From NCBI GenBank assembly GCA_022842165.1, contig JALHQC010000024.1:1-56685 (forward strand): 56,685 nucleotides of DNA, in the 5' to 3' direction. Within the stretch, counting starts at the first letter, position 1. Every line of letters begins with the position of its first letter. The notes beneath the pieces were generated by a model that was not told the DNA's origin, made no database searches, and saw only the letters and a program-made list of their open reading frames with translations. A program made the translations under genes and the position numbers. This DNA is from a bacterium. GTDB taxonomy: Bacteria; Pseudomonadota; Alphaproteobacteria; Rhizobiales; Aestuariivirgaceae. Positions 10,218 to 52,402 of this stretch are shown piece after piece.

Positions 10218-10317
10218 GGATGATCCTCCCTGAGAGTGATGGCCGAGCTTGGGTTGAATTGCTGCTCGTTGCCAATGGCGGATCATTAGAATAACACCAT
10301 GGGTCAGGCAACGGGAT

Positions 10318-10330: not shown

Positions 10331-10352
10331 TAAGATTGCCAAAAGGGCGGGA

Positions 10353-27746: not shown

Positions 27747-27748
27747 GT

Positions 27749-28737: not shown

Positions 28738-28749
28738 GATGGCCTCCTC

Positions 28750-30069: not shown

Positions 30070-30075
30070 CGGACC

Positions 30076-30999: not shown

Positions 31000-31033
31000 T
31001 CGCTTTATCCCGTCATTCCTCAACTCTCACCTC

Positions 31034-31100
31034 GTCACCCCGGCGAAGGCCGGGGCCCAGCTTGTCTGTTCAGCGGGGTCCCCGCCTTCGCGGGGATGAC
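31034..31100. repeat. GTCAT/ATGAC-bounded palindromic repeat, copy 2
   Basis: This 67-bp element is in the gap between the FAD subunit gene and the AAA ATPase gene. It opens with GTCACCCCGG, contains CCCCGG/CCGGGG and CCCCGC/GCGGGG hairpins, and ends ATGAC. It is shorter than the copies at 9010 and 43247 because the central ACCCAT/ATGGGT part is missing. Confidence 0.75.
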
Positions 31101-31179
31101 GGACACACCATAACGTCTCCGCAAACAATGAACCCGCGAGATTGCGCCCGCGGGTTCATAGACTTGCGAACGTTGAAGC

Positions 31180-31974
31180 CTACTTCGCCGCTTCCACGGC
31201 CCGCTTCGCCATGACCGTGATCAAATGCGCGCGATATTCGGCAGAAGCATGCATGTCGCTGTTGAGGCCCTTGGACTTAACCGCGATGCCGTCGAGCGAG
31301 GAGCCCGCGAACTTCCTTGACAATGCCGCTTCCATGTCGGCGACACGGAACACGCCGGGGCCCGCCCCCGTCACCGCCACCCGCGCCGAGCCATCGGCCC
31401 CTTGCGCCACGAACACGCCGACCATCGCATAAAGCGAGGCCGGGTTCGGGAACTTGGCATAGCCCGACTTCTTGACGAGCGGGAATTCCACCGCCGTCAC
31501 GATCTCGGTATCCTTGAGAGCCGTCGAGAACATGCCGGTGAAGAACTTGTCGGCGGCAAGCTTCCGGTCCGTCGTATGGATGGTCGCACCCAGCGCCAGG
31601 CAGGCGGAAGGATAATCCGCCGCCGGATCATTGTTGGAAACCGAACCGCCGATCGTGCCCTTGTGGCGCACATGCGGATCGCCGATGCCGCCGGCCAGCG
31701 CCGCCAGTCCGGGGATCGCCTTCTTCAGTTCCTTGCTGGCCGCCACCTCGGCATGCGTGGTGCCGGCCTGGATCACCACCGACTTGGCGCCGATCTTGAT
31801 GCCGGTATTCTTGAGCCCGCCGAGATCGATGATGTCGGTCGGTGATGCAAGCCCCTGCTTCAGCGTCGGGATCAGCGTATGGCCGCCGGCCATGAACTTG
31901 CCGTCCTTGGCCTTTTTCATGGCCTTCACGGCATCCGCCACCTTGGCGGGACGAACGTAATTGAAGTTTTCCAT
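31180..31974 (-). CDS. coxM: molybdenum hydroxylase FAD subunit (CoxM-like)
   Basis: This is the 264-residue medium subunit of a xanthine-oxidase family enzyme. The FAD-binding motifs of the family are visible: MAGGHTLIPTLKQGL (about 28-42) and TIGGSVSNNDPAADYPS (about 106-122), with GIGDPHVRHKG just before. The C-terminal CODH_FAD_C-like region includes ARVAVTGAGPGVFRVADMEAAL. It passes electrons from the iron-sulfur subunit to the acceptor. It follows the large subunit gene by 21 bp. Confidence 0.93.
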   Translation of the reverse strand: MENFNYVRPAKVADAVKAMKKAKDGKFMAGGHTLIPTLKQGLASPTDIIDLGGLKNTGIKIGAKSVVIQAGTTHAEVAASKELKKAIPGLAALAGGIGDPHVRHKGTIGGSVSNNDPAADYPSACLALGATIHTTDRKLAADKFFTGMFSTALKDTEIVTAVEFPLVKKSGYAKFPNPASLYAMVGVFVAQGADGSARVAVTGAGPGVFRVADMEAALSRKFAGSSLDGIAVKSKGLNSDMHASAEYRAHLITVMAKRAVEAAK

Positions 31975-31995
31975 TTGTTCAGTCCTCCCCGAGCC

Positions 31996-34368
31996 TTACT
32001 CGGCAGCCTTCTTCATGGGTTGCAGCATCTTCCAGACGACATGCGGCGTCGCCGGCATCGGCACGTCGCGAACGTCGAGCGCATCCGTCACCGCGTTCAT
32101 CACCGCCGCCGGAGAGGCGATGGCGCCCGCCTCGCCGCAGCCCTTCATGCCGAGCGGATTGCTCGGGCACGGCGTGCAGGTGAAGGCGAGGTTGAAGTTC
32201 GGAACATTCGCCGCGCGCGGCATCTGGTAATCCATGTAGGAGCCGGTCAGAAGCTGGCCCGACTGCTTGTCATAGACGCAGCCCTCGGCAAGCGCCTGGC
32301 CGATCCCCTGAACGATGCCGCCATGCACCTGACCCTCGACGATCATCGGGTTGATGATGTTGCCGAAGTCATCGACCGCCGTGTAGTTGACGACGTCCGT
32401 CACACCGGTGTCCGTGTCGATCTCCACTTCGCAGATGTGGACGCCGGCCGGGAACACGAAGTTCGACGGATCGTGGAACGCCGCCTCCTTCAGGCCCGGC
32501 TCGATCTCGGCTGAGTTGAACTTGTGCGCCACGTAAGCAGACAAGGCCACTTCGCCGAACGCCATCTTCTTGTCGGTGCCTTTGACCGTGAAGGTGCCGT
32601 TCTTGAACTCGACGTCATCGGCGGAGGCTTCCATCACCGCGGCTGCAACGCGCTTCGCCTTGGCCTCGATCTTGTCGAGCGCCTTGGAAATCGCCGTCAT
32701 GCCGACAGCACCCGAGCGCGAGCCATAGGTACCCATGCCGAACTGCACCTTGTCGGTGTCGCCATGAACGATCGCAACATTGTTGATGTCGATGCCAAGC
32801 CGGTCGGAGACGAGCTGTGCAAACGTCGTCTCATGGCCCTGGCCGTGGCTGTGCGAACCGGTCAGCACTTCCACTGTGCCGACCGGGTTCACGCGAACCT
32901 CCGCCGACTCCCAAAGGCCAACGCCCGCACCGAGAGAACCGATGGCCGCCGATGGCGCAATGCCGCAGGCTTCGATGTAGGCCGAGTAGCCCAGGCCCCG
33001 CAGCTTGCCGGACCTGGCGGCGGCCGACTTGCGGTCGGCAAAGCCCTTCACGTCGGCAATCTCGAGTGCCTTGTCGAGGGCTGCCGCATAGTCGCCCGCG
33101 TCGTAGCACATGATCACGGGCGTCTGGTGCGGGAACTGCGTCACGAAGTTCATCCGGCGGAATTCGGCCGGGTCCATCTTCAATTCGCGCGCCGCCGTCT
33201 CGACGATGCGCTCCACCACATAGGTCGCTTCCGGACGGCCGGCACCGCGATAGGCATCGACCGGTGCGGTGTTGGTGTAGATCGCATCCACTTCCGCATA
33301 GATGTTCGGGATATTGTACTGGCCCGACAGCAGCGTCGCGTAAAGATAGGTCGGCACGCAGGAGGCGAATGTCGAGAGGTACGCCCCCATCGCCGCCTTG
33401 GTGTGAACCTTGAGGCCGGTGATCCTGCCATTGGAGTCGGTCGCAAGCTCGGCATGGGTCACGTGGTCACGGCCATGCGCATCGGCCAGGAAGCTTTCCG
33501 AGCGTTCCGCCGTCCACTTGATGGGCCGGCCACCGATATGCTTCGAGGCCCAGACGCAGGCCACTTCTTCGGCATAGATGAAGATCTTGGAGCCGAAGCC
33601 GCCGCCCACGTCGGGTGCGATCACGCGGAGCTTGTGCTCCGGCGCCAGGCCATGGAAGGCGGAGATGACGAGCCGCGCCACATGCGGGTTCTGGCTCGTC
33701 GTATAGAGCGTGTAGCTCTCGCTGCCCGTGTCATAGGAGCCGATTGCCGCGCGTGGCTCCATCGCATTGGGAATAAGCCGGTTGTTGACGAGGTCGATCT
33801 TGGTCACATGCGCAGCGTTCCTGAAGGCGGCGTCGGTCGCCCCTTCATCGCCGATCGACCAGTTGAACACCCGGTTGTCGGGCGCAACATCATGGATCGC
33901 GGCCTTGGCGCCCATGGCATCCGCCACATCGACGACATGCGGCAGCGCCACATAGCCGACGCTCACCGCAGCCGCAGCGGCCTTCGCCTGTTCGCGCGTC
34001 TCGGCAACGACAAGCGCCACATGATCACCCACATAACGCACCTTGCCCTGCGCCAGCACCGGGTGCGGGCCAGCCTTCATGGGCGAGCCGTCCTTCGAGT
34101 GGATCATCCAGCCGCAGATCAGGCCGCCCAGCTTGTCGTTCGCGATGTCATCGCCCGTGAAGATGCCAACGACGCCCGGCATCTTCTTCGCCTTGGCGGT
34201 GTTGATCGACTTGATGGTAGCGTGCGCATGGGGGCTGCGCACGAAATAGGCATAGGTCTGCTTCGGCAGGTTGATGTCGTCGGTGTAGTTGCCTTTGCCG
34301 GTGATGAAGCGATGATCTTCCTTGCGCCTGACGCGGGCGCCGATGCCGGTTCCGGTTGAATTGTCCAT
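31996..34368 (-). CDS. coxL: molybdenum hydroxylase large subunit, form II CO dehydrogenase-like (CoxL)
   Basis: This is a 790-residue catalytic subunit. [23 protein letters not shown] opens the protein; later parts include [28 protein letters not shown], the active-site loop AYRGAGR (372-378), [20 protein letters not shown], and near the C terminus KGCGEAGAI with the catalytic glutamate. AYRGAGR marks form II; genuine CO dehydrogenase (form I) has AYxCSFR with the copper-binding cysteine. So this is an aerobic molybdenum hydroxylase whose substrate need not be CO. It carries the molybdopterin cytosine dinucleotide cofactor and acts in the cytoplasm with the small and FAD subunits. Confidence 0.93.
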
Positions 34369-40323: not shown

Positions 40324-41262
40324 TCAAGTAGCCCGCAGCGCCGACGGCGGCTTCCCGTAACGCGCGCGGAAGCTGCGCGAGAACAGCGGCAGCGAGGAAA
40401 ACCCGCAAGCCACCGCAATCTCGCGGATGCTCATGCCTGAATAGGTGATGAGGCGCTCCGCCTTCTCCAGCCGCAGCTTCAGGTAAAAGCCCATCGGCCG
40501 CTCCTTCAGCACATCATGGAACAGCCGTTCCATCTGCCGCACCGAAATTCCCCCCACCTGCGCCAGTCCCGCCGCATCGAGCGGGTCTTCTCCCTGCTCT
40601 TCCATCGCCGTGATGATCTTCAACAGCCGCGCATCCGTGGTGCCATAGCGCGCCGCCGTCGGAAGCCTCGCCTGCGTTGGTGCCTCCATCGAACGGAAGT
40701 GGACGAGCTGGTCCGCCACCATCACCGCCAGCGGCCGTCCCAGCAGCCGCCCGATCCAGTCGAGCATCATGTCGATCGCCGCCGCACCGCCTGCACAGGT
40801 CATGCGGTCACGGTCCGTCACATAGAGTGACTGCTCCGCCAGCACCTTCGGATAGCTCTCGCGAAATCCCGGCAGGCTTTCCCAATGGCAGGTGGCGCGA
40901 TAGTCGTCGAGCACGCCTGCCTCCGCCAGCAGGAACGGCCCGGTATCGATCGCCGCCATCAGCACCCGCCGCCGCGCCAGCGCCTTGATCGCCGCAAGCA
41001 TCGGCCGGGTGATGCCCTTTTCGGGCGCATAGCTGGCGGAGATCACCGCCATGTCCGGCGTGCCGACATCTGAAAGCGTGCCAGACACTGAAACCGGAAT
41101 GTCGTTCGAGGCCGCCACCGGCTGCCCATCCGCCGATACGAAGCGCCACGAGAAGGTCGGCCCCGCGAAGCGGTTGGCGACCCGCAAGGGCTCGAGCGCC
41201 CCATACAGCGCGATCATCGAGAACTTCGGCACCAGCAGGAACACGACATCGTAACGCGCCAT
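40324..41262 (-). CDS. cdhR: GlxA family AraC-type regulator, CdhR-like
   Basis: This is a 312-residue regulator. The N-terminal DJ-1/PfpI-like domain (about 1-185) contains YDVVFLLVPKFSMIALYGALEPLRVANRFAG, AAIDTGPFLLAEAGVLDDYRATCHWE and the family-specific TCAGGAAAIDMMLDWIGRLLG. The C-terminal AraC double helix-turn-helix (about 215-310) has VGGISVRQMERLFHDVLKERPMGFYLKLRLEKAERLI and IAVACGFSSLPLFSRSFRARYGKPPSALR. Pseudomonas CdhR, of the same family, activates carnitine catabolism. Here the gene is divergent from BKACE and carnitine dehydrogenase genes with an 87-bp shared promoter region, strongly suggesting the same role. Confidence 0.85.
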   Translation of the reverse strand: MARYDVVFLLVPKFSMIALYGALEPLRVANRFAGPTFSWRFVSADGQPVAASNDIPVSVSGTLSDVGTPDMAVISASYAPEKGITRPMLAAIKALARRRVLMAAIDTGPFLLAEAGVLDDYRATCHWESLPGFRESYPKVLAEQSLYVTDRDRMTCAGGAAAIDMMLDWIGRLLGRPLAVMVADQLVHFRSMEAPTQARLPTAARYGTTDARLLKIITAMEEQGEDPLDAAGLAQVGGISVRQMERLFHDVLKERPMGFYLKLRLEKAERLITYSGMSIREIAVACGFSSLPLFSRSFRARYGKPPSALRAT

Positions 41263-41349
41263 GGCGATAAAAGAAAAGCCTGTGGCGAAAAAAGTCAAAT
41301 GCTCATTCTGCGCACGGCCTAGTCTCCGCTCCACCATCAGGAGGATTCC

Positions 41350-42243
41350 ATGCAGCCCAAAGTCATCATCACCTGCGCCGTCACCGGCGCGGGCGACACC
41401 GTCGGCAAGCACCCGGCCATTCCGGTAACGCCCGAGCAAATCGCCAATTCGGCCTTGGAAGCCGCCAGCGCCGGCGCCACGGTGGTGCATTGCCATGTGC
41501 GCAACCCCGAAACCGGCAAGGGTGCGAGAAGCGTCGATCTTTACCGCGAGGTGATGGAACGCATCCGCGCGAAAAACACCGAAGTCATCATCAACCTCAC
41601 CGCCGGCATGGGCGGCGATGTCGAGGTGGGTGCCGGCGAAAACCCCATGCACTGGGGCCAGGGCACCGATTTGGTCGGCCCGCAGGAACGCCTCATCCAC
41701 ATCAAGGAACTGAAGCCCGAAATCTGCACGCTGGATTGCGGAACGCTGAATTTCGGCGACGGCCATACCATCGTCATCCAGACGCCCGCCCAGCTCCGCG
41801 AACAGGCGAAGCTCATCATGTCCTACGGCGTGAAGCCCGAGATGGAGATTTTCGATAGCGGTAATCTCTGGTTCGCCAAGCAGCTCCACATGGAAGGCCT
41901 GATCCAGGATCCTCCCCTGTTCCAGCTCTGCCTCGGCATCCCGTGGGGTGCGCCCTATGACAGCGAAACCATGGCCTATCAGAAGGCGCAGCTTCCGCCT
42001 GGCGCCATCTGGGCCGCCTTCGGCATCGGCCGCAACGAATTTCCCGCCGTGGCGCAGGCCGTGCTGCTGGGCGGCCATGTGCGTGTGGGCCTCGAAGACA
42101 ACCTCTACCTCGAGCGCGGCGTCTACGCGTCCAACGGCACGCTGGTCGAAAAGGCGGTCAAGATCATCGAGCTTCTGGGCACCAGGGTCGCCTCGCCGGA
42201 CGAAGGCCGCCAAATCCTGAAGCTCGCGCCGAGGAAGAAGTAA
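41350..42243 (+). CDS. cdhC: beta-keto acid cleavage enzyme (3-dehydrocarnitine cleavage, CdhC-like)
   Basis: This 297-residue TIM-barrel zinc enzyme of the BKACE (DUF849) family cleaves a beta-keto acid with acetyl-CoA. Zinc-ligand segment [43 protein letters not shown] and the C-terminal [21 protein letters not shown] are typical. In carnitine degradation the enzyme converts 3-dehydrocarnitine and acetyl-CoA to acetoacetate and betainyl-CoA. The placement next to carnitine dehydrogenase and a CdhR-like regulator supports this specificity. AGGAGG precedes the start, and the next gene starts 1 bp after the stop. Confidence 0.9.
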
Positions 42244-42244
42244 C

Positions 42245-43243
42245 ATGGCCCGCACCATCAAGACCGTCGGCATCGCCGGAACCGGCCTCATCGGCGCCGG
42301 CTGGGCCGCCCGCCTCCTCTTCCGCGGCTACAACGTCATCGCCTTCGACGTTTCGCCCGCCGCCGAAGACAAGCTGAAAGCCCAGATCAAGACCGCCTGG
42401 CCCTCTCTCGAAGCCCTCCTCGGCAAGCCGGTGAAGAAAGGCAAGCTCACGTTCACCACCGACTTGAAGGAGATGGCCTCCAAGGCTGACTTCATCCATG
42501 AAGCAGCGCCCGAGCGCGAAGACCTCAAGATCAAGCTCTTCCGCGATATCGACGCCGCAGCTGCACCTGACGTGATCATCGCCTCCTCCTCCTCCGGCTT
42601 CCTGCCCACCAACCTGCAGAGCCAATGCCAGCACCCCGAACGCGTCATCATTGGCCATCCTTTCAACCCGGTCTATCTCTTGCCGCTGGTCGAGATCGTG
42701 CCGGGCGAGAAGACAGCCCCTGAATCGCTCGACCGCGCCACGGAATATTTCGAGGCCATCGGCATGCAGGTGCTGAGGCTGAAGCGCGAGATCATGGGCT
42801 ACGTCTGCGACCGCCTGCAGGAAGCCCTCTGGCGCGAGGCGCTCCACATCCTCAACAAGGATATTGCGACCACCGGCGATATCGACGACTCGATCGTCTA
42901 TTCGGCGGGCATGCGCTGGGCCTTCATGGGCTCCTTCCTCACCTATCACGTGGCCGGCGGCCCCGGCGGCATGAAGGACTTCATCAAGCAGTTCGACCCG
43001 ACGCTGGAACTCGACTGGACAGACCTCAAATTCCCGAAATGGAATGCCGAACTCGAGAAGCGCCTCGTCGAAGGCTGCGAGGCGCAAGCCCAGGGCCGCA
43101 AGGTCTCCGAGATCGAAGCCAAGCGCAACGCCATCCTCGTCGACATGATGAAGCTCTTCAAGAAGCACAAGATCGGCGCCGGGTTGGTGCTTGAACGCGA
43201 GCTGAAGGCAAGGAAGAAGAAGCCCGCAAAAACCAAATCCTGA
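42245..43243 (+). CDS. cdhA: L-carnitine 3-dehydrogenase
   Basis: This 332-residue NAD-dependent enzyme of the 3-hydroxyacyl-CoA dehydrogenase fold oxidises L-carnitine to 3-dehydrocarnitine. The N-terminal Rossmann motif is VGIAGTGLIGAGWAARLL. Features shared with known carnitine dehydrogenases rather than generic 3HCDH are ADFIHEAAPEREDLK, SSSSGFLPT, GHPFNPVYLLPLVEIVPGE, EALWREALHILN, TTGDIDDSI, GMRWAFMGSFLTYHVAGG and DWTDLK. The C terminus is lysine-rich (KARKKKPAKTKS). No separate thioesterase domain, as found in some fused forms, is present. Translation is probably coupled to the BKACE gene. Confidence 0.9.
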   Translation: MARTIKTVGIAGTGLIGAGWAARLLFRGYNVIAFDVSPAAEDKLKAQIKTAWPSLEALLGKPVKKGKLTFTTDLKEMASKADFIHEAAPEREDLKIKLFRDIDAAAAPDVIIASSSSGFLPTNLQSQCQHPERVIIGHPFNPVYLLPLVEIVPGEKTAPESLDRATEYFEAIGMQVLRLKREIMGYVCDRLQEALWREALHILNKDIATTGDIDDSIVYSAGMRWAFMGSFLTYHVAGGPGGMKDFIKQFDPTLELDWTDLKFPKWNAELEKRLVEGCEAQAQGRKVSEIEAKRNAILVDMMKLFKKHKIGAGLVLERELKARKKKPAKTKS

Positions 43244-43246
43244 TCT

Positions 43247-43341
43247 GTCATCACCGGGCTTGTCCCGGTGACCCATTGTGCAGCATTCTCAAAAATCGAA
43301 TTTTAAGCACGATGGGTCCCCGCAATGAATGCGGGGATGAC
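43247..43341. repeat. GTCAT/ATGAC-bounded palindromic repeat, copy 3
   Basis: This 95-bp element lies between cdhA and the first SDR gene. It starts GTCAT 4 bp after the cdhA stop. It contains TCACCGGG/CCCGGTGA (43251-43271), ACCCAT/ATGGGT (43271-43276 with 43312-43317) and CCCCGC/GCGGGG hairpins, ending ATGAC. Same layout as the 9010-9123 copy. Confidence 0.8.
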
Positions 43342-43363
43342 AATCGATAACGGGGAGCACCAC

Positions 43364-44134
43364 ATGCCAGCACAACGCGTCATGATCACCGCCGCAGCAG
43401 ACGGCATAGGCAAAGCCATCGCCCGCGCTTTCGCGGCGGAAGGCGCCACTGTCCACATCTGCGACGTCAACGAAACAGCCCTTGCCAAATTCCGCGATGA
43501 ATTCCCGGATATCGCGGCGAGCAAGGTCGACGTCCGCAACGAAGGCCAGATCAACGCCTGGTTCGACGACGCGCTTGACGACATGGACGGCCTCGACGTG
43601 CTGGTGAACAACGCCGGCATCAAGGGCCCGACGTCCCCTGTCGAAGGCATCGAACTCGCCGACTGGAAGGAATGCATCGAGATTTGCCTCGATTCCTACT
43701 TCCTCTGCGCCAAGCGCGCTGTGGCGGTGATGAAGGACCAGAAGTCCGGCACCATCATCAACCTGTCGTCGAATGCCGGCCAGCACGGCTTCGGCAACCG
43801 CACACCCTATGCCGCCGCGAAGTGGGGCGTCATCGGCCTCACCAAGTCGCTGGCGATCGAGATGGGCCGCTTCAACGGCCGCTGCAACGCCATCTGCCCC
43901 GGCTCGGTCAAGGGCGACCGCATCAATCGCGTCATCCAGGGCGAGGCCGACGTGCGCGGCGTGCCCTTCGACGTGGTGGCAAAGGAGATTGTCTCCAACC
44001 AGTCGCTCGAACGCCTGACCGAACCCGATGAAGTGGCGGCGCTGGCCGTCTTCCTCAGCAGCCCCGCCGCCTTCATGATCAACGGGCAGGACATCGCCAT
44101 CGACGGCCATGTCGAAACCTTCCACATCAAGTGA
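43364..44134 (+). CDS. SDR family oxidoreductase in the carnitine cluster
   Basis: This 256-residue short-chain dehydrogenase has the coenzyme loop ITAAADGIGKAIARAFAAEG, NNAGIKGPTSP, a catalytic serine region INLSSNAGQHGFGNRTP and YAAAKWGVIGLTKSLAIEM (Tyr and Lys). GSVKGDRINRV follows. The specific substrate is unknown. Within the cluster it could act on a carnitine stereoisomer or on another hydroxy/keto intermediate; this is speculation. ATG 43364 has GGGGAG upstream. It ends 8 bp before the acyl-CoA dehydrogenase gene. Confidence 0.85.
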   Translation: MPAQRVMITAAADGIGKAIARAFAAEGATVHICDVNETALAKFRDEFPDIAASKVDVRNEGQINAWFDDALDDMDGLDVLVNNAGIKGPTSPVEGIELADWKECIEICLDSYFLCAKRAVAVMKDQKSGTIINLSSNAGQHGFGNRTPYAAAKWGVIGLTKSLAIEMGRFNGRCNAICPGSVKGDRINRVIQGEADVRGVPFDVVAKEIVSNQSLERLTEPDEVAALAVFLSSPAAFMINGQDIAIDGHVETFHIK

Positions 44135-44142
44135 GCTGAGTA

Positions 44143-45306
44143 ATGGATTTCCTTCTCACCGAAGAACAGCAGATGATCGTGAAGACGACGAAGGATTTCG
44201 TCGCCAACGAACTCTATCCGCACGAGGCCGAGGTCGAGGAAACGGGCGTTCTCCGCCACGACCTCCGCGACCAGATCAAGGCCAGGGCCATCGAAGCCGG
44301 ACTCTACGCCGCCAACATGCCGGCCGAAGTGGGTGGTGCTGGCCTCGATACGCTCACATGGGTCTTGTACGAAAAAGAACTCGGCCGCGCCAACTACGCG
44401 CTGCACTGGACCTGCGTTGCGCGCCCCTCCAACATCCTCATGGCCTGCGAAGGCGAGCAGCGCGAGAAGTACCTGTTCCCGGCGGTACGCGGCGAGAAAT
44501 CCGATTGCCTCGCGATGACCGAACCCGGCGTCGGCTCGGATGTGCGCGGCATGAAGACCTTTGCAAAACAGGATGGCGACGACTTCATCATCAACGGCAC
44601 CAAGCACTTCATCAGCCACGCCGATGAAGCAAGCTTCGTCATCCTCTTCGCGGCAACGGGCGAGGAGGAAACTCCTCGCGGCAAGAAGAAGCTCATCACG
44701 GCCTTCCTCATCGACATGGGAACGCCGGGCTACACCGTCCGCCCCGGCTACAGGAACGTCTCGCATCGCGGCTACAACAATTGCATCCTCGAATTCAACG
44801 ATTGCCGTGTGCACAAGAGCCAGGTGCTGGGCGAAATTCACAAGGGCTTCGAAGTCGCGAACGACTGGCTGGGTGCTACAAGGCTTCAGGTCGCCGCCAC
44901 CTGCATCGGCCGCGCCGAACGCGCTCTCGATCATGCCAAGCAATATGCGGTGGACCGCCACCAGTTCGGCCAGCAGATCGGCAAGTTCCAGGGCGTCAGC
45001 TTCAAGCTTGCCGACATGGCGATGGAGTTGAAGGCCGCCGAGCTTCTGACACTCGAAGCCGCATGGAAGTTCGACAACAAGACCGTCACCGACATGGACA
45101 TGGCGATGGCGAAGCTCAAAGCCACCGAGATGCTGGCCTTCGTGGCGGACGAGGCGATCCAGATCCACGGCGGCATGGGCCTGATGAGCGACCTGCCACT
45201 GGAGCGCATCTGGCGCGATGCAAGGGTGGAGCGCATCTGGGAAGGCACATCCGAAATCCAGCGCCACATCATCAGCCGCGCGCTGCTGAGACCGCTGGGT
45301 GGTTAA
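44143..45306 (+). CDS. acyl-CoA dehydrogenase, probable gamma-butyrobetainyl-CoA/crotonobetainyl-CoA dehydrogenase
   Basis: This is a 387-residue FAD flavoprotein with all three acyl-CoA dehydrogenase domains. N-terminal helices start DFLLTEEQQMIVKTTKDFV. The middle barrel has CLAMTEPGVGSDVRGMKT and HFISHADEASFVILFAATG. The C-terminal helices contain AERALDHAKQYAVDRHQFGQQIGKFQGVSFKLADM, ADEAIQIHGGMGLMSDLPLERIWRDARVERIWEGTSEIQRHIISR. Context next to a CoA ligase and a CaiD-like hydratase suggests it desaturates gamma-butyrobetainyl-CoA to crotonobetainyl-CoA. Electrons would go to ETF, which is not encoded here. Confidence 0.9.
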   Translation: MDFLLTEEQQMIVKTTKDFVANELYPHEAEVEETGVLRHDLRDQIKARAIEAGLYAANMPAEVGGAGLDTLTWVLYEKELGRANYALHWTCVARPSNILMACEGEQREKYLFPAVRGEKSDCLAMTEPGVGSDVRGMKTFAKQDGDDFIINGTKHFISHADEASFVILFAATGEEETPRGKKKLITAFLIDMGTPGYTVRPGYRNVSHRGYNNCILEFNDCRVHKSQVLGEIHKGFEVANDWLGATRLQVAATCIGRAERALDHAKQYAVDRHQFGQQIGKFQGVSFKLADMAMELKAAELLTLEAAWKFDNKTVTDMDMAMAKLKATEMLAFVADEAIQIHGGMGLMSDLPLERIWRDARVERIWEGTSEIQRHIISRALLRPLGG

Positions 45307-45309
45307 CTC

Positions 45310-45408
45310 CCTTCTCCCCTTGCGGGAGAAGGTGGCGCGAAGCGCCGGATGAGGGGTCCCCTCACCCGTCATGCTTCGCATGACACCCTCTCCCGCGAGG
45401 GGAGAGGG
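45310..45408. repeat. composite palindromic repeat with CCTTCTCCC/GGGAGAAGG arms
   Basis: This roughly 99-bp element between the acyl-CoA dehydrogenase and CoA ligase genes contains four hairpins in a row: CCTTCTCCC/GGGAGAAGG (45310-45332), GGCGC/GCGCC, TGAGGGG/CCCCTCA and GTCATGC/GCATGAC, closed by CCCTCTCCC/GGGGAGAGGG. The A/G-rich 3' edge (GGAAGGAAAAG) supplies the ribosome site of the ligase gene. Related sequence recurs at 47478-47600. Confidence 0.75.
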
Positions 45409-45418
45409 AAGGAAAAGA

Positions 45419-47464
45419 ATGAGAATGACCAAGCCAATCACCCGCCTCCTCAACCCCACCTCCATCGCCTTCATTGGCGGCAATGAATGTGCCGTCGCCA
45501 TCCGGCGCACGCAGGAACTGGGCTTCACGGGCAAAATCTGGGCCGTGCATCCGAAGCGCGAGGAACTCGCCGGCATCCCCACGCTGAAGTCGGTGGACGA
45601 AATCGACGGCCCCATCGATGCTGCCTTCGTCGCGGTGAAGCGCGAGCCTACCATCGAGATCGTCCGTGCACTGAAGGCCAAGGGCTGCGGCGGTGCCGTC
45701 ATCTATGCGGCGGGCTTCGCCGAGACCGGCAACAGCGACCTGCAGGATGAACTCCTCAAGGCCGCCAACGGCATGCCACTGATGGGACCAAACTGCTACG
45801 GCTTCGTCAACACCCTCTCGCGCGCCGCACTCTGGCCCGATGAAACCGGCCTCGAGCCGGTGGAGCGTGGCGTGGCACTCGTCACGCAGTCCGGCAACAT
45901 CGCCTGCAACTTCACCATGATGATGCGCGGGCTTCCCGTCGCCGCCGTATTCTCCATCGGCAATCAGGTCGATGTCGGCATGCACGACATGGTCGAGGCC
46001 CTCTCAGGCGATCCGCGCATCTCGGCCATCGGCCTCCACGTCGAGGGCCTCCCCGATGTCGCAGGCTTCGCCCGCGCCGCGCTGCTGGCACGCCAGCGCA
46101 AGGTGCCCATCGTGGTGCTGAAGACCGGCCGCTCCGAACAGGGCGCCAAGGTGGCGATGAGCCACACGTCCTCCCTCGCCGGTGCCGACACGCTCTATGA
46201 CGCCCTCTTCGAGCGTTACGGCGTGGCGCGCATGAAATCCGTCTCCGCCTTCGCTGAAACGCTGAAGTTTCTGCACAACGGCGGCCCCATCGCGGGTTCG
46301 ACGCTCGTCTCGATGAGCTGTTCCGGCGGCGAAGCGGCCCTCGTCGCCGACATGGCGCTGGAGAGACAAGTCAGCTTCCCGCCCTTCAACGACGAGACAC
46401 GCCCACGCGTCGCGGCAACGCTGAACGAATATGTCGCCATCGACAATCCGCTCGACTATCACACCTTCATCTGGAACCAGCCGGAGAAGTTGAAGGCCAC
46501 CTTCACCGAAGTGCTGAAAGGCGGCTTCGACGTGGCGATGGTGATCCTCGATACGCCCACCCACCCCAAGATGAAGCCCGATGCCTGGGCCGTCACCGCC
46601 CGCGCGCTGGCTCACGCATCAGAAGCAACCGGCGCCCGCGCCGCGGTCGTCGCCACACTCTCGGAAGGCATGCCGCTTCCCCTCGCCGCCGAATTGTCCG
46701 CTCAACGCGTAGCCCCGATGATGGGCCTCGACGATGCGTTGACCGCCTTCGAAGCCGCCGCCTTCATCGGCCGCAACTGGGCGCGGTCCGATGCGCCGCC
46801 AGAAATGCTGCTGCCATCCGTCAGGGGATCCGGCGAAAGGATTTTGAGCGAGTACGACGCGAAGCAATTGCTGAAGTCACATGGCCTGTCGGTTCCGGAC
46901 GGCATCGTCTGCAAGGCCGCCGATGCTGTGGCTGCTGCGGAAAAGCTTGGGTTTCCCGTCACGCTGAAAACCTCCTCCACCGCCATCGCCCACAAGACCG
47001 AGGCAGGCGGCGTGGCGCTGAACCTCAAGACGGCAGCGGAAGTCGAAGCCGCCGCCGCCCGCATGTCAAAGCTCGCGCCCGATGTTTTGGTCGAGCGCAT
47101 GGTCATGGGTGCCATCGCCGAACTCATCATCGGCCTCAAGTCCGATCCGCAGTTCGGCACGGCCCTCGTCGTCGGCGCCGGCGGCATCCTCACCGAACTG
47201 CTGAAGGATGCGGTGACGCTGATCCTCCCCACCTCGCGCGCCGAGATCGAGCGCGCACTGAAGACGCTGAAAGTCTGGAAACTCGTCGAAGGCTTCCGCG
47301 GCAAATCCGGCGATCAGGCAGCGGTCATCGCCGCCATCGAGGCGGTCGCCGCCTTCGCCGAAGCCCAGCGCGGCCTGATCGAGGAACTCGACGTCAACCC
47401 CCTGCTCGTACTCCCCAATGGCGCCATCGCCGTCGATGCCCTGATCAGGATGCGACAGGAATGA
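45419..47464 (+). CDS. ADP-forming acyl-CoA ligase (acetate-CoA ligase family), fused subunits
   Basis: This is a 681-residue protein of the ADP-forming acyl-CoA synthetase superfamily. The N-terminal CoA-binding domain starts LLNPTSIAFIGGNECAVA. The succinyl-CoA-synthetase-like part has GPNCYGFVN, VTQSGNIACNF and the phospho-histidine segment KVAMSHTSSLAG. The C-terminal ATP-grasp domain (about 460-680) has LSEYDAKQLLKSHGLSVPDG, VTLKTSSTAIAHKTEAGGVALNL and VGAGGILTELLKDA. In this cluster it probably activates gamma-butyrobetaine, crotonobetaine or carnitine with CoA. ATG 45419 is preferred; ATG 45425 also fits. Confidence 0.88.
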   Translation: MRMTKPITRLLNPTSIAFIGGNECAVAIRRTQELGFTGKIWAVHPKREELAGIPTLKSVDEIDGPIDAAFVAVKREPTIEIVRALKAKGCGGAVIYAAGFAETGNSDLQDELLKAANGMPLMGPNCYGFVNTLSRAALWPDETGLEPVERGVALVTQSGNIACNFTMMMRGLPVAAVFSIGNQVDVGMHDMVEALSGDPRISAIGLHVEGLPDVAGFARAALLARQRKVPIVVLKTGRSEQGAKVAMSHTSSLAGADTLYDALFERYGVARMKSVSAFAETLKFLHNGGPIAGSTLVSMSCSGGEAALVADMALERQVSFPPFNDETRPRVAATLNEYVAIDNPLDYHTFIWNQPEKLKATFTEVLKGGFDVAMVILDTPTHPKMKPDAWAVTARALAHASEATGARAAVVATLSEGMPLPLAAELSAQRVAPMMGLDDALTAFEAAAFIGRNWARSDAPPEMLLPSVRGSGERILSEYDAKQLLKSHGLSVPDGIVCKAADAVAAAEKLGFPVTLKTSSTAIAHKTEAGGVALNLKTAAEVEAAAARMSKLAPDVLVERMVMGAIAELIIGLKSDPQFGTALVVGAGGILTELLKDAVTLILPTSRAEIERALKTLKVWKLVEGFRGKSGDQAAVIAAIEAVAAFAEAQRGLIEELDVNPLLVLPNGAIAVDALIRMRQE

Positions 47465-47477
47465 CTACGCCGCACCA

Positions 47478-47600
47478 GCCCTCATCCCCCTGTCGGGACC
47501 TTCTCCCATGGCAAGAGCCACGGGAGAAGGCGGCAGACCGATGGGCCTTCTCCCGTGCCGTGAGGCATGGGAGAAGGTGGCCGCCAGGCCGGATGAGGGC
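47478..47600. repeat. 123-bp palindromic repeat with 10-bp terminal inverted repeats
   Basis: The element begins GCCCTCATCC (47478-47487) and ends GGATGAGGGC (47591-47600), a perfect terminal inverted repeat. Inside are two copies of CCTTCTCCC...GGGAGAAGG hairpins. It lies in the 184-bp gap between the CoA ligase and the CaiD-like gene and shares arms with the 45310-45408 element. It resembles a miniature non-coding mobile element. Confidence 0.75.
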
Positions 47601-47648
47601 ACTTTCAACACGATTAGCCGCCGATCATCAGCCTACGGAGCTTCCGTC

Positions 47649-48431
47649 ATGACCACCCCAATCCACACCACCCGCCGCGGGCGCGTCCTCGAAGTCAGGA
47701 TCGAGCGCGGCAAGGCCAACGCGATCGATGCCGCGACCTCGCGCATCATGGGCAACATCTTCGCGAGCTTCCGCGATGACCCCGAACTCCGTGTCGCCAT
47801 CCTCACCGGCACCGGCGAAAAATTCTTCTGCCCCGGCTGGGACCTGAAGGCCGCAGCCGAAGGCGAGGCACCGGACTCGGATTATGGTGTCGGCGGCTTC
47901 GGCGGCTTGCAGGAATTGCCCAACCTCAACAAGCCCGTCATCTGCGCGGTGAACGGCCTCGCCTTCGGCGGCGGCTTCGAGATCATGATCTCCTGCGACA
48001 TCATCATCGCCGCCGAGCACGCCACCTTCGCGCTGCCCGAAATCAATTCCGGCACGGTGGCCGATGCCGCGTCCATCAAGCTCCCCCGCCGCATCCCCTA
48101 TCACGTGGCGATGGAAATGCTCTTCACCGGCCGCCGCATCGATACCACGGAAGCGAAACACTGGGGCCTCATCAACGAGGTCGTTCCGGCGGGCAAGTTG
48201 ATGGACCGCGCCCGCGAAGTGGCGGACCAGCTGGCCGATGGCCCGCCCCTCGTTTTCGCCGCCATCAAGGAAATCACGCGGGACACGGCACACCTCCCCG
48301 TTCAGCAGGCCTTCGACATGGTGACGAAGCGCAAGCTGAAGACCGTCGACATCCTCTATTCCAGCGAGGATCAGCTTGAAGGCGCCAGGGCCTTCGCCGA
48401 AAAACGCAAGCCCCAATGGAAGGGACGCTGA
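47649..48431 (+). CDS. caiD: carnitinyl-CoA dehydratase (CaiD-like)
   Basis: This 260-residue crotonase-fold hydratase interconverts crotonobetainyl-CoA and L-carnitinyl-CoA. Beyond the general motifs (VNGLAFGGGFEIMISCDIIIA, ALPEINSGTVADAASIKLPRRI), it shares CaiD-specific stretches: GWDLKAAAEGEAPDSDYG, GGFGGL, and the C terminus LEGARAFAEKRKPQWKGR, which matches E. coli CaiD in position and length (about 260 residues). ATG 47649 has GGAG upstream. The frame is open further 5' but only through the palindromic repeat. It overlaps nothing; the next SDR starts 4 bp later. Confidence 0.9.
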   Translation: MTTPIHTTRRGRVLEVRIERGKANAIDAATSRIMGNIFASFRDDPELRVAILTGTGEKFFCPGWDLKAAAEGEAPDSDYGVGGFGGLQELPNLNKPVICAVNGLAFGGGFEIMISCDIIIAAEHATFALPEINSGTVADAASIKLPRRIPYHVAMEMLFTGRRIDTTEAKHWGLINEVVPAGKLMDRAREVADQLADGPPLVFAAIKEITRDTAHLPVQQAFDMVTKRKLKTVDILYSSEDQLEGARAFAEKRKPQWKGR

Positions 48432-48435
48432 CACC

Positions 48436-49206
48436 GTGACCCTCGACTTCGCCGGAAAGCGCATTCTCGTCACCGGCGGCACACGCGGCATCGGCCGGGC
48501 GACGGTCGAAGCCTTCCTTGCCGCAGGTGCCCGCGTGGCGGTCAACGGCAGCACCGTTCAATCTACCGAGAAAGCCATCGCCACGCTTGGGCTCGAGGCC
48601 ATCGGCGTGCCGGGCGACGTTTCAGGCGCCGATGCCTGCAAGCTCATCGTCGAAACGGCGGCCACCGAATTGGGAGGTCTCGATATTCTGGTGAACTGCG
48701 CCGGTGTGGCCCATGGCGGCCCCGTGGAGGAAATGACCGAGGCGCTCTGGGACCAGACGCTCGACATCAACCTCAAGGGCACCTTCTTCTGCATCCAGGC
48801 GGCCCTGCCCCATCTTCGTGCCTCGCAAGGCAACATCGTCAACCTGGCCTCCGATGCCGGGCTCATCGGAGAGGCCGGCCTTGCTGTCTATTGCGCCTCG
48901 AAGGGCGGCGTCGTGAACCTCACCCGCGCACTGGCGCTGGAGCTTGCACCCGAGATCCGCGTCAACTGCGTTTGCCCGGGCTACGTCGATACCGACATGG
49001 TCCGCCGCGATGTGATTGACGCTTCAACCGATCCGAAGGCAACCGAACAGGCGCTCGCCAATGCGGCCCCTCTGAATCGCATCGCCACGCCGGCGGAAAT
49101 CGCCACAGCGATTCTCTATCTCGCCTCGCCGCATGCCCTCTTCATGACGGGCGCAGCCCTGCAGATCGACGGCGGAACGACCGCCGGGCACCCAAAGCGG
49201 GATTGA
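48436..49206 (+). CDS. SDR family oxidoreductase
   Basis: This is a 256-residue short-chain dehydrogenase. It has ILVTGGTRGIGRATVEAFLAAGA (coenzyme loop), NCAGVAHGGPVEEM, INLKGTFFCIQAALPHL, the catalytic serine in VNLASDAG, and YCASKGGVVNLTRALALEL (Tyr/Lys), then CVCPGYVDTDM. The GTG start at 48436 follows the CaiD-like stop by 4 bp. It is the last gene of the presumed carnitine operon; the substrate is unknown. A strong hairpin begins 11 bp after the stop, but its T tract serves the opposite strand. Confidence 0.85.
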   Translation: MTLDFAGKRILVTGGTRGIGRATVEAFLAAGARVAVNGSTVQSTEKAIATLGLEAIGVPGDVSGADACKLIVETAATELGGLDILVNCAGVAHGGPVEEMTEALWDQTLDINLKGTFFCIQAALPHLRASQGNIVNLASDAGLIGEAGLAVYCASKGGVVNLTRALALELAPEIRVNCVCPGYVDTDMVRRDVIDASTDPKATEQALANAAPLNRIATPAEIATAILYLASPHALFMTGAALQIDGGTTAGHPKRD

Positions 49207-49548: not shown

Positions 49549-50469
49549 ATGTTGCGCCACATTCCCGGCCTGCAGTCCCTCAAGGCCTTTGATGCCGCCG
49601 CCCGCCACCTGAGCTTCACAAAAGCCGCGCAGGAATTGAACGTCACGCCGGCCGCCGTCAGCCACCAGATCAAGGAACTGGAGGAAGCAACCGGCGTCTC
49701 CCTGTTCCAGCGCACCAGCCGCCACATGCAGCTGACGCGCCATGGCGAACTCCTCCGCCCCGCCGTGGCCGATGCGCTGGAAGGCCTGACGCGCGCCCTG
49801 CAGCGCATCCGCCAGTCGGAAAACCCCACCCAGGTGCGCGTCACGGCATCGCCCTCGATTGCCGCGAAATGGCTGGTGCCCCGCATCGACCGTTTCCTCG
49901 ATTCGGTGCCGGGTGCCGATGTGCGGATCGATGTCTCCTCCTCGGTCCTCGATTTCGATCGCGACGACGTCGACGTGGCGATCCGCTTCGGCGATGGCAA
50001 CTACCCCGGCCTCGAAGTCGACAAGCTCTTCCACGATGTGCTGTTCCCGGTCTGCAGCCCCGCCGTGCTTACTCGCCGCAAGCCCATCCGCGAGCCGCGC
50101 GACCTGCTGCAGCACACGCTGATCCATCTCGAATACGAGGCCCAGGGCGCTGTCTGGCCCAACTGGCGCATGTGGATGCTGGCCGCGGGCGTCAAGGACT
50201 TCAACGACACCCGCGGCCTCCACTTCAGCCAGACCTCGCTGGCGATCCAGGCGGCGATCGACGGCCATGGCGTGGCGCTGGGCGATTCGACCCTGGTGGG
50301 AGACGATCTGGCCAGCGGCCGCCTGGTGAAACCCTTCGAACTCTCGCTCCGAAGCCCGGCGCAATTCGCCTATCACCTGATCACCAGGCGCGACACCTCC
50401 GGCCGCCCGATGACCAGGGCTTTCCGCAACTGGATCCTCGCGGAAGCGTTGACGACAGCGGGTGGCTAA
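49549..50469 (+). CDS. LysR-type transcriptional regulator, GcvA-like
   Basis: This is a 306-residue LysR regulator. The N-terminal helix-turn-helix is LQSLKAFDAAARHLSFTKAAQELNVTPAAVSHQIKELEEATGVSLFQRTSR (about 8-58). The effector domain includes VTASPSIAAKWLVPRIDRFL, DVDVAIRFGDGNYPGLEVDKLF and the C-terminal LAIQAAIDGHGVALGDSTLVGDDL, the pattern of the GcvA subgroup. No glycine-cleavage genes are near, so the target may be the divergent small gene or a distant locus. Confidence 0.9.
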   Translation: MLRHIPGLQSLKAFDAAARHLSFTKAAQELNVTPAAVSHQIKELEEATGVSLFQRTSRHMQLTRHGELLRPAVADALEGLTRALQRIRQSENPTQVRVTASPSIAAKWLVPRIDRFLDSVPGADVRIDVSSSVLDFDRDDVDVAIRFGDGNYPGLEVDKLFHDVLFPVCSPAVLTRRKPIREPRDLLQHTLIHLEYEAQGAVWPNWRMWMLAAGVKDFNDTRGLHFSQTSLAIQAAIDGHGVALGDSTLVGDDLASGRLVKPFELSLRSPAQFAYHLITRRDTSGRPMTRAFRNWILAEALTTAGG

Positions 50470-50692
50470 GGCTGCATCATGTGTTGCCGGGAATTGTGCG
50501 GCCATGATCGCCAGGCTTGGCTGTCAGCATCTCTGGACCTGTCATCGAGCCAAAAAATGGGTTGGTACTAACTCCACACAAACTTACACATTTGCGTGAG
50601 GCGGTCATCACAATGAGTTCGTTTGCCAGTGATCGTCGCAACCACCACCCTTGCCCCGTCGCGAAACATCGCGACCAGAGGGAGAAAACACC

Positions 50693-50947
50693 ATGAAGAT
50701 CACCACCGTATCGGGCGCCGCGCTGGCCGCCGCCGCCTTCACCATAGCCATCGGCGCCACCGCCATGGTGCAGCCAGCGTCTGCCGCCGGCAAAGTAATG
50801 TGTTTCGGAGTCAACGCCTGCAAGGGCCAGGCCGCCTGCAAAACCGCCAGCAACGCTTGCAAGGGCCAGGCCGCCTGCAAGGGTCAGGGCTGGATCCATA
50901 CCTCCGCCGAACAATGCAAGGCTTGGGGCGGCAAGGTTCAGGGCTAA
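50693..50947 (+). CDS. BufA2-like bufferin (copper-binding RiPP precursor), no modification partners nearby
   Basis: This is an 84-residue precursor with a signal peptide (about 1-31, ending SAA) followed by a cysteine-rich region: CFGVNACKG, ACKTASNACKG, ACKGQGW, QCKAWGG. The six cysteines (37, 43, 49, 56, 62, 75) and the repeated CKG pattern match the BufA2 type of periplasmic bufferin. Bufferins are modified on cysteines by an MNIO enzyme (BufB) with a BufC partner and bind copper. No bufB or bufC gene is next to it, so it is an orphan. ATG 50693 has GGGAG upstream. The 223-bp gap after the LysR gene shows no other gene. Confidence 0.82.
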   Translation: MKITTVSGAALAAAAFTIAIGATAMVQPASAAGKVMCFGVNACKGQAACKTASNACKGQAACKGQGWIHTSAEQCKAWGGKVQG

Positions 50948-50955
50948 GGCGACTA

Positions 50956-50988
50956 ATCCTTCTCCGCGCAGAACGCGTGGAGAAGGAT
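50956..50988. terminator. 14-bp hairpin between convergent genes
   Basis: Bases 50956-50969 pair with 50975-50988 (one G-U) around a 5-nt loop; the outer arm is ATCCTTCTCC/GGAGAAGGAT. It fills the gap between the bufferin gene and the convergent SDR gene and has no long T tract on either side. It probably limits read-through in both directions. Confidence 0.5.
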
Positions 50989-51780
50989 CTACTCCGGCGC
51001 CAGTGCGGGATGCGCGTCGAACACCCCAACCGGCATTTGCTCATAATCGATGATCGCGCCCGTCATCATCTGCGCTGAAGGCGAGACGAGATAGGACATC
51101 AGCCCCGCCACGTCATCCGGCACGATCATGCGTCCGGCCGGCATGCGGCGGCCGATCTCCTCGGCCCAATTCTCCGGCAACCCATGAAAGCCCGTCTGCA
51201 GCGCCTGCTCGCCTTCCGAATGCACCCAGCCCAAATTGATCGCGAAGGCGCGGATGCCGTCGCGCTTCACCGCATTCGCCACCGATTTCGTCAGTGTACA
51301 GAGCGCCGCCTTTGAAGCCGAATAGGTCGAAAGATTGGGCGGCCCCCCATGCGCCAGCATGGAAGATACATTGATGATGGTGCCCGCCTTGCGTTCCCGC
51401 ATCACCTTCACCGCCTCCTGCATCATGAACAGCGGCGCCCGCACATTGACACCGAAGATCCGCTCATAGGCCTCTGGCGTCGTATCCTCGATGCCGCAAC
51501 GCTCGGTGCTGCCTGCCGCATTGACGAGAACGTCGAGCCGCCCGAATGCTGAAACCGTGGCCGCCACCGCGCGTGCGGCAAGCTCCAGGTCAAGCAGGTC
51601 ACCGTCCAGCGTTTCAACCCGGCCCACCGCCGCCAGCTTCGCCGCAGCCTCCTTCAGCCTCGCGCCATTGCGGTCCAGCAGCATCACGCCGCCGAAGCCT
51701 TCCGACAGGAACCGCTTAGCCGCTGCAAAGCCCATGCCCTGCGCCCCGCCCGTGATCAGTGCAATCCTGCCGTCAGCCAT
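50989..51780 (-). CDS. SDR family oxidoreductase
   Basis: This is a 263-residue short-chain dehydrogenase. It has IALITGGAQGMGFAAAKRFLSEG (coenzyme loop), VNAAGSTERCG, VNVRAPLFMMQEAVKVM, the serine in INVSSMLAHGG, YSASKAALCTLTKSVANAV (Tyr/Lys) and INLGWVHSEGE. ATG 51780 has GGGAGA upstream. The substrate is unknown. It stands downstream of an SRPBCC gene on the same strand, separated by 76 bp, so co-transcription is possible. Confidence 0.85.
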   Translation of the reverse strand: MADGRIALITGGAQGMGFAAAKRFLSEGFGGVMLLDRNGARLKEAAAKLAAVGRVETLDGDLLDLELAARAVAATVSAFGRLDVLVNAAGSTERCGIEDTTPEAYERIFGVNVRAPLFMMQEAVKVMRERKAGTIINVSSMLAHGGPPNLSTYSASKAALCTLTKSVANAVKRDGIRAFAINLGWVHSEGEQALQTGFHGLPENWAEEIGRRMPAGRMIVPDDVAGLMSYLVSPSAQMMTGAIIDYEQMPVGVFDAHPALAPE

Positions 51781-51856
51781 CTGCGTTCTCCCATGTTCCG
51801 GAAGTTCTATTGCCAAGGCCCGCGCGCTCCAAGCCCCGCTGCCATGCCAAAAGCAA

Positions 51857-52402
51857 TCAGCCGCCCTGTGCGTCGCGCTCGACAAGCATCTTGAGATTGG
51901 CGAGGCCCTTCTCGTAGTCCGGGCCGATCCAGCGGTCGAACATCAGGCTCATCCAGCGCTCGAGCACGCCATCATTTTCCGAGCGGAACCCCCAGGTGAC
52001 GATTGTCCCCACGGTGGCGGGCTCCAGCGTCAGCGTCGCCGTCGCCTGTCCCATCTCGCCGAAATCGAGTTCCGTCACCACCTTTTCGTTCGGCACCGCC
52101 TCGGTCACGGTCTGCGAACCCGATCCCACATCAGGCTTGTTCGATGTCCACGACATCTTCTGCCCCACGCCCTGCTCCGGCCCCTCGAAACTGTACTCAG
52201 CGGCAGGGTCGAGCCCGGCCCACGGCGACCATTCGTTGAAGCGCCTCAGGCTCCCCGCAACTGCATAGACCTTGTCCGGAGGCGCCGCGATCGTCACCGA
52301 ACGTTCCACCACCGTCACCGGCGAAATCAGGTAGGCCCCGCCCACGAAGCCGACGATCACGGTCACGAGAAGATAGACGATGCCCTTGATGATGGCGTTC
52401 AT
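51857..52402 (-). CDS. membrane-anchored SRPBCC (polyketide cyclase-like) protein
   Basis: This is a 181-residue protein. An N-terminal membrane anchor (about 5-27, IIKGIVYLLVTVIVGFVGGAYLI) precedes a SRPBCC/START-like ligand-binding domain: VERSVTIAAPPDKVYAVAGSLRRFNEWSPWAGLDP, KMSWTSNKPDVGSGSQTV, VVTELDFGEMGQATATLTLEP, GTIVTWGFRSEN. No enzymatic role can be assigned. ATG 52402 has AAGGGAG upstream; an open frame to 52456 adds unconserved residues. Confidence 0.82.
   Translation of the reverse strand: MNAIIKGIVYLLVTVIVGFVGGAYLISPVTVVERSVTIAAPPDKVYAVAGSLRRFNEWSPWAGLDPAAEYSFEGPEQGVGQKMSWTSNKPDVGSGSQTVTEAVPNEKVVTELDFGEMGQATATLTLEPATVGTIVTWGFRSENDGVLERWMSLMFDRWIGPDYEKGLANLKMLVERDAQGG

Follow-up and report, generated by a model that had tools for sequence, protein, structure and literature searches.

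A probable gamma-butyrobetaine and carnitine degradation operon in an Aestuariivirgaceae genome and the loss of a thioesterase domain from its carnitine dehydrogenase

Which compounds are broken down by the compact gene cluster on a 56,685-nucleotide contig of an Aestuariivirgaceae bacterium (JALHQC010000024.1, assembly GCA_022842165.1; the whole stretch is called the window below), and how are carnitine and glycine betaine released from their coenzyme A (CoA) esters if the cluster encodes no thioesterase? The window is contig C24 of a source genome of 4.30 Mb in 117 contigs that is 99.27% complete. An earlier note, made from the sequence alone, had listed a regulator, BKACE, carnitine dehydrogenase (CdhA), a short-chain dehydrogenase/reductase (SDR), an acyl-CoA dehydrogenase, an ADP-forming CoA ligase, a CaiD-like hydratase and a second SDR; this content and order were confirmed, as all eight genes lie in open frames and the Pfam and NCBIfam matches agree. 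Most probably the cluster is an operon that allows growth on gamma-butyrobetaine, crotonobetaine and carnitine, similar in kind to the one characterized in Sinorhizobium meliloti. The pathway from gamma-butyrobetaine to glycine betaine is already known from that organism, and the idea of an unusual or new gene combination was ruled out, the same set being present in many rhizobia and other Proteobacteria. What this study adds is that the fused thioesterase was lost once in this CdhA family and that the ligase carries an aromatic signature.

We infer every substrate and every reaction of the cluster as follows. The ADP-forming ligase would convert gamma-butyrobetaine, ATP and CoA to gamma-butyrobetainyl-CoA, the acyl-CoA dehydrogenase would oxidize this to crotonobetainyl-CoA and the CaiD-like hydratase would hydrate the latter to L-carnitinyl-CoA, from which a thioesterase would release L-carnitine. 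CdhA would then oxidize L-carnitine to dehydrocarnitine, BKACE would turn dehydrocarnitine and acetyl-CoA into betainyl-CoA and acetoacetate, and betainyl-CoA would finally be cleaved by a thioesterase to glycine betaine. The first SDR (SDR 1) would probably oxidize D-carnitine to the same dehydrocarnitine, and the CdhR-like regulator may be the sensor of a pathway substrate. The central part of this route, which the earlier note had proposed to lead from the ligase through desaturation and hydration to L-carnitinyl-CoA and on to CdhA and BKACE, has good support: the genes are linked in many genomes, the families match and S. meliloti provides a precedent.

The ligase, acyl-CoA dehydrogenase, hydratase, carnitine dehydrogenase and BKACE lie together in the window, as an S. 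meliloti-type cluster requires. Their linkage was followed in two overlapping surveys that are counted apart (L067 and L144 are one contig), comprising 36 stretches from the same order and 80 stretches of a genome_contigs set, all chosen for holding the ligase or CdhA, with genes labelled by BLAST thresholds. The genome_contigs set was obtained by a ligase-alignment scan of GTDB species genomes, in which at least 591 stretches matched, 589 of these 591 were confirmed as relatives and the best 80 were kept. Among these best 80 ligase loci, CdhA was present in 57, BKACE in 55, the acyl-CoA dehydrogenase in 78, the hydratase in 76 and a CdhR-like regulator in 50. The ligase was found in 31 of the 36 order stretches, together with CdhA (29), BKACE (28), the acyl-CoA dehydrogenase (31), the hydratase (26) and a CdhR-like regulator (25). 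Since the same order recurs in distant genomes, the cluster is not a chance arrangement. At the level of whole genomes, 53 of the 297 from the order carried the ligase (E <= 1e-150) and 83 carried a CdhA relative (E <= 1e-60, paralogues included). The source genome belongs in or close to Aestuariivirga. Ligases of 83 to 87% identity came from Aestuariivirga genomes and from bins filed merely as Pseudomonadota or Alphaproteobacteria, and Aestuariivirga litoralis KCTC 52945 (L147) has the same cluster minus the second SDR (SDR 2). The titles of the genome_contigs stretches include Rhizobium, Mesorhizobium, Shinella, Phyllobacterium, Marinobacter and gammaproteobacterial bins; in the Marinobacter stretches surveyed, CdhA and BKACE were not found. 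The ligase also occurs in 156 plasmid records (E 1e-100), 130 of them from Rhizobium. The one plasmid that was opened, p1 of Rhizobium sp. NZLR1, carries the core set with no SDR, followed by ABC transporter genes, and its annotations read GlxA family regulator, 3-keto-5-aminohexanoate cleavage protein, carnitine 3-dehydrogenase, acyl-CoA dehydrogenase, acetate--CoA ligase family protein and carnitinyl-CoA dehydratase.

The family matches point in the same direction. The best NCBIfam model is L-carnitine dehydrogenase for CdhA (358.3 bits; cut-off 414), crotonobetainyl-CoA hydratase for the hydratase (342.5 bits against a cut-off of 500, with the second-best model at 231.3) and GbdR for the regulator (264.7 bits; under the cut-off of 480); both SDRs pass the cut-offs of broad subfamilies only. 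The ligase has fused CoA-binding, Succ_CoA_lig and ATP-grasp_5 domains. The window proteins keep the residues that we take to be catalytic, namely the HxH motif of BKACE, Glu111 and Glu131 (E111/E131) of the hydratase, the glutamate of the WEG motif of the acyl-CoA dehydrogenase and His250 (H250) of the ligase. Across relatives, the BKACE HxH and GLED motifs (89 rows), the CdhA motifs (92 rows) and the ligase phosphohistidine (112 rows) are conserved, E111 and E131 of the hydratase are at least 95% conserved (105 rows), and at the acidic position of the IWEG motif of the acyl-CoA dehydrogenase 67 of 113 rows have Glu, as does the window, 43 have Asp (IWDG) and three have a gap.

Several points weigh against this assignment. 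No NCBIfam equivalog cut-off was reached in the rows shown for the cluster proteins, so that the substrate names are ones we infer. For the acyl-CoA dehydrogenase, the acryloyl-CoA reductase model (286.4 bits) outscores the CaiA model (191.2 bits), and the family therefore does not give its substrate. In 23 of the 80 ligase loci the fetched stretch, on a short contig in some but not all cases, holds no CdhA. Finally, BcoAB of S. meliloti, a gamma-butyrobetaine:CoA ligase that has been employed together with ATP and CoA (PMC8364193; this and the other papers on published systems are cited from excerpts), is a putative orthologue of the window ligase, to which it is likened here by described function. 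As specificity is unreadable from the sequence and the assignment of the acyl-CoA dehydrogenase is loose, the substrates could instead be limited to carnitine and crotonobetaine, or the cluster could serve some other onium compound or 4-substituted butyrate, and not gamma-butyrobetaine. This is quite improbable: a path from crotonobetaine alone needs no acyl-CoA dehydrogenase, yet that gene accompanies the ligase in 78 of 80 loci, and S. meliloti provides a precedent for gamma-butyrobetaine. This type of operon marks likely users of gamma-butyrobetaine and carnitine, nitrogen-rich solutes that are usable by soil and marine bacteria.

The ligase itself provides a further indication of the substrate. 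Its nearest solved relative is DddX (7cm9), both by sequence (E 9.5e-75) and in a fold search with the predicted model (mean pLDDT 89.4; TM 0.87 by query length). DddX is a lyase of the onium acid dimethylsulfoniopropionate and needs ATP and CoA. Its phosphohistidine is probably His292, and according to a docked model backed by mutants its Trp391 and Phe435 bind the sulfonium group by cation-pi interactions (PMC8163506). H250 and the aromatic residues Y348, W353 and W391 of the window ligase do not vary in two sets of 14 and 24 relatives, and the three aromatic residues are at least 95% conserved in 112 rows, these sets being overlapping. In the HMMER alignment, counted by hand, DddX Trp391 aligns with H349 within the ligase motif NPLDYHTFIW (344-353) and Phe435 aligns with A390, beside W391; at the position of this motif, 4-hydroxybutyrate ligase has NPVDIVGD and PatZ has NPLDLRDD. 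The two enzymes are alike in the phosphohistidine and, with the substrate proposed here, in the CoA ligation of an onium acid, whereas the onium-site aromatics stand at shifted positions and the lyase base Glu432 of DddX aligns with Lys, so that no lyase step is expected. The conserved aromatics near the DddX sulfonium site would thus favour a quaternary-ammonium acid as the substrate of a plain ligase reaction over short-chain acids.

The absence of a thioesterase and a transporter from the window, as reported in the earlier note, was upheld, but the note had missed the context, in that many related clusters have the thioesterase fused to CdhA and the domain has been lost in this clade. No 4HBT domain was found in the window CdhA (332 residues) by a Pfam scan, and the protein ends in a lysine-rich tail after the dehydrogenase part. 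Among the stretches having CdhA, a 4HBT-type thioesterase domain continues the CdhA frame in 20 of 34 from the order and 21 of 57 from the genome_contigs set (Pfam-checked on L071). Unfused CdhA is therefore not rare: 36 of the 57 genome_contigs loci have it, which rules out that the lack of the domain is peculiar to this clade, and a separate thioesterase lies in the stretch for nine of the 36 and for 27 does not. CdhA was detected in 30 of the 37 genomes of the genus (E 1e-110); one stop inside the CdhA match was flagged in G303, G208, G314 and G309, that of G208 being the gene's own. In a tree of 37 CdhA domains, all 25 full domain-less sequences form a single clade (support 100/99), and the domain was therefore lost once in this CdhA family and was not restored in the sample. 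A further row, L238, which made 26 with the thioesterase-less label, ends at a contig edge and was set aside; in its genome (G315) the domain is present on a different contig. The domain is kept outside the clade in G228, G300, G301 and G307 of the genus, in G247, in Aestuariivirga sp. YIM B02566, in L146 and in the outgroup rows. L146 is filed as the actinobacterium Candidatus Planktophila lacus; its CdhA falls within the Aestuariivirga family and the assignment is probably a binning error. That a single domain was cleanly lost while the operon otherwise stayed intact makes this clade a simple natural experiment on how carnitine and glycine betaine are released from their CoA esters and on whether the thioester energy is wasted or recovered.

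With the fused domain lost, both release steps fall to something outside the operon or to a reversed ligase. A replacement thioesterase in the operon was not found in the seven order and eight genome_contigs stretches of the clade (three contigs shared); in the other genus genomes, about 4 kb round cdhA was surveyed. Searches of the source genome with PF13279, the thioesterase domain and OpuAC gave matches on other contigs only and none in the operon. The rest of the genome, to which the earlier note had pointed, holds a candidate 4HBT_2 protein (G000:C6:59249-59689), which is unlinked and 34% identical to the fused domain. Matches to the fused domain occur in 36 of 37 genus genomes, including those without CdhA, and the unlinked 4HBT_2 protein is present in all seven genus genomes that lack cdhA at the threshold used; it is therefore not tied to the pathway. 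Its neighbour is the same in five of the six loci examined and is, judged by eye, a putative FAD-linked oxidase. In 14 genomes of the order, an unlinked match is present in 12, and in G009 and G018 the sole match is the fused domain itself. A gain of this protein as compensation for the loss is not supported, as it is also found in the fused-domain genus genomes G228, G300, G301, G307 and G315. In unfused Mesorhizobium and Aminobacter clusters, an alpha/beta hydrolase follows the hydratase (12 related open reading frames, of which the two tested match Abhydrolase_3); no Aestuariivirga locus falls within this group. The unlinked 4HBT_2 thioesterase is the simplest candidate for both release steps, plainly one that is not dedicated to them.

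ADP-forming ligases are reversible, and the release steps may require no dedicated thioesterase at all, the ligase accepting carnitinyl-CoA and betainyl-CoA, running in reverse and regaining ATP, so that loss of the thioesterase would have made a wasteful path ATP-neutral or ATP-yielding. The domain was lost once and kept lost in 25 of 25 sequences, no such thioesterase lies in the stretches of the clade or near 27 of the 36 unfused genome_contigs loci, and the unlinked 4HBT_2 protein occurs independently of the pathway, all of which would fit this proposal. It is nevertheless unlikely, and acceptance of hydroxylated or C2 substrates by the ligase is hypothetical. Because a generalist thioesterase is widespread (36 of 37 genus genomes) and separate ones lie near nine of the 36 unfused loci, hydrolysis outside CdhA is the simpler reading. 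That a reversed ligase frees both carnitine and glycine betaine with recovery of ATP throughout the unfused Aestuariivirga clade, and perhaps in other lineages, is a shade more doubtful still; if true, one reversible enzyme would stand in for a ligase and two hydrolytic steps.

Of the two SDRs, to which the earlier note had assigned no step, SDR 1 can be given a putative one. SDR 1 is present in 19 of the 36 order and 18 of the 80 genome_contigs stretches. Many order stretches have it between CdhA and the acyl-CoA dehydrogenase, L178 and L194 have it in the gap between BKACE and CdhA, and some gammaproteobacterial loci have it on the opposite strand; it was not found in the surveyed Rhizobium- and Mesorhizobium-type stretches or in G104 (L075). 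This patchy presence suggests an optional input or side step. SDR 1 keeps the Tyr/Lys pair and the Asp that follows beta-2. The substrate configuration on which FabG/3-hydroxybutyrate-type enzymes act matches D-carnitine, and CdhA takes L-carnitine; oxidation of D-carnitine therefore fits SDR 1, which is probably a D-carnitine dehydrogenase. Its matches in the Protein Data Bank, the best being 5unl followed by several 3-hydroxybutyrate dehydrogenases, together with the formation of acetoacetate as the co-product of BKACE, allow the tentative alternative of a 3-hydroxybutyrate dehydrogenase that disposes of this acetoacetate. However, SDR 1 scores under the cut-offs of the 3-hydroxybutyrate dehydrogenase models (204.7 of 258 and 193.8 of 307 bits) and is missing from many clusters that should yield the same acetoacetate. 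Moreover, at the NNAGxQ position, presumably the carboxylate site of 3-hydroxybutyrate dehydrogenases, 19 of 38 sequences including that of the window have NNAGIK and eight have NNAGIA. SDR 2 (at least 300 bits) was found only in L067/L144 and L139 among the 116 stretches.

For uptake, the rest of the source genome yielded no BCCT carrier (0 matches; four of 14 control genomes match) and three OpuAC-type binding proteins as candidates, on contigs C9, C56 and C39, in line with the suggestion of the earlier note to look there. That on C9 passes the cut-off for choline-binding proteins, and that on C56 adjoins a ProV-type ATPase, a choline-type permease and two further proteins. The best models of the latter two are GcvT, sarcosine oxidase and trimethylamine N-oxide demethylase, all under the cut-off, as is expected for dimethylglycine/sarcosine-type enzymes. 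The use of glycine betaine by the source organism is plausible.

The starts of five genes were re-set by comparison with relatives, according to our reading of the alignments (Table 1). The regulator has 312 residues, and its 655-residue open reading frame continues in frame across the opposite strand of BKACE. The alignment of six sequences of the cdhR-BKACE intergenic region contains conserved blocks, with a putative operator, and an AGGAGG-type ribosome site upstream of BKACE.

Table 1. Features of the cluster, with positions in the window
Feature	Positions	Strand	Basis
cdhR-like AraC/GlxA-type regulator, divergent from operon	40324..41262 (corrected start)	-	HTH_18, DJ-1_PfpI; start from alignment of relatives
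Divergent intergenic region, 87 bp, presumed operator/promoter	41263..41349		Alignment of six sequences; putative function
BKACE (CdhC-like)	41350..42243	+	PF05853, 326.7 bits; predicted activity
CdhA-like L-carnitine dehydrogenase, 332 residues, without C-terminal thioesterase domain	42245..43243	+	NCBIfam; no 4HBT domain; comparison with fused relatives
SDR 1, recurrent accessory gene, proposed D-carnitine dehydrogenase	43364..44134 (corrected start)	+	SDR families; predicted step
Acyl-CoA dehydrogenase, proposed gamma-butyrobetainyl-CoA dehydrogenase	44143..45306	+	Family; linkage to ligase; WEG glutamate
ADP-forming acyl-CoA ligase, proposed gamma-butyrobetaine (and crotonobetaine) CoA ligase	45425..47464 (corrected start)	+	Domains; DddX likeness
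Palindrome with 34-nt arms in the ligase-hydratase intergenic region	47498..47578		Palindromic sequence
CaiD-like crotonobetainyl-CoA hydratase	47649..48431 (corrected start)	+	Best NCBIfam model; E111/E131
SDR 2, in this cluster only among close relatives	48436..49206 (corrected start, about 48436)	+	SDR families

Several neighbouring and inserted genes were also observed. A GcvA-like LysR gene and a third SDR gene (49549-51885, on the other strand) stay beside the cluster in several Aestuariivirga genomes, and others have a metallophosphoesterase gene in the vicinity of the hydratase, LysR or third SDR gene (L070 and L073, Pfam; L247 and L248, by eye). In Mesorhizobium, related genes lie between BKACE and CdhA (L198:6063-6692, L202:6121-6750, L213:1507-2136 and L216:6035-6664), that of L202 encoding an HD-domain protein. 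In L074 (genome G186), a PhzF-like gene separates CdhA from SDR 1 and the hydratase is followed by a creatininase-like gene (10262-11095 and 4766-5506). Farther away in the window (26136-34368, minus strand) lie, in order, a MobA-like transferase, a CoxE-type VWA protein, an AAA ATPase and a large molybdopterin-binding hydroxylase subunit, which looks like a form II CO-dehydrogenase-type cluster.

Among known systems, the S. meliloti pathway reportedly converts gamma-butyrobetaine to glycine betaine in seven steps with five enzymes (2019 study by Bazire et al.). The carnitine dehydrogenase of that organism, which we take to be fused to a thioesterase domain, differs in this respect from the window CdhA; the CdhA of Pseudomonas aeruginosa is presumably a stand-alone protein, as in the window. 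The S. meliloti cluster reportedly resembles that of the window in CdhA, BKACE, acyl-CoA dehydrogenase, ligase, hydratase and the route to glycine betaine, whereas the window adds SDR 1 and SDR 2; two of the S. meliloti enzymes appear in the excerpts of PMC12482172 and PMC8364193. In the former, which cites Bazire 2019, SM2011_c01638 oxidizes carnitine and also converts betainyl-CoA to glycine betaine. The P. aeruginosa operon caiX-cdhCAB-hocS with divergent cdhR (PMC5806209) shares with the window a divergent AraC-family regulator and the adjacency of cdhC and cdhA, whereas the window is without caiX, cdhB and hocS and has the ligase, acyl-CoA dehydrogenase and hydratase that the operon, as described in that excerpt, does not contain. 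The caiTABCDE operon of Escherichia coli (named in PMC5806209 and PMC2131755) is similar in its CaiD-like hydratase, acyl-CoA dehydrogenase and CoA-ester chemistry. In contrast to it, no CaiB- or CaiC-type gene was found among the ten window proteins scanned (no genome search for PF02515 was made), the source genome is without a BCCT carrier and the window cluster would run toward breakdown. According to the excerpt of a 2007 review (PMC2131755), which also lists a D-carnitine dehydrogenase, an industrial strain near Rhizobium meliloti converts gamma-butyrobetaine to L-carnitine by a path analogous to fatty-acid degradation.

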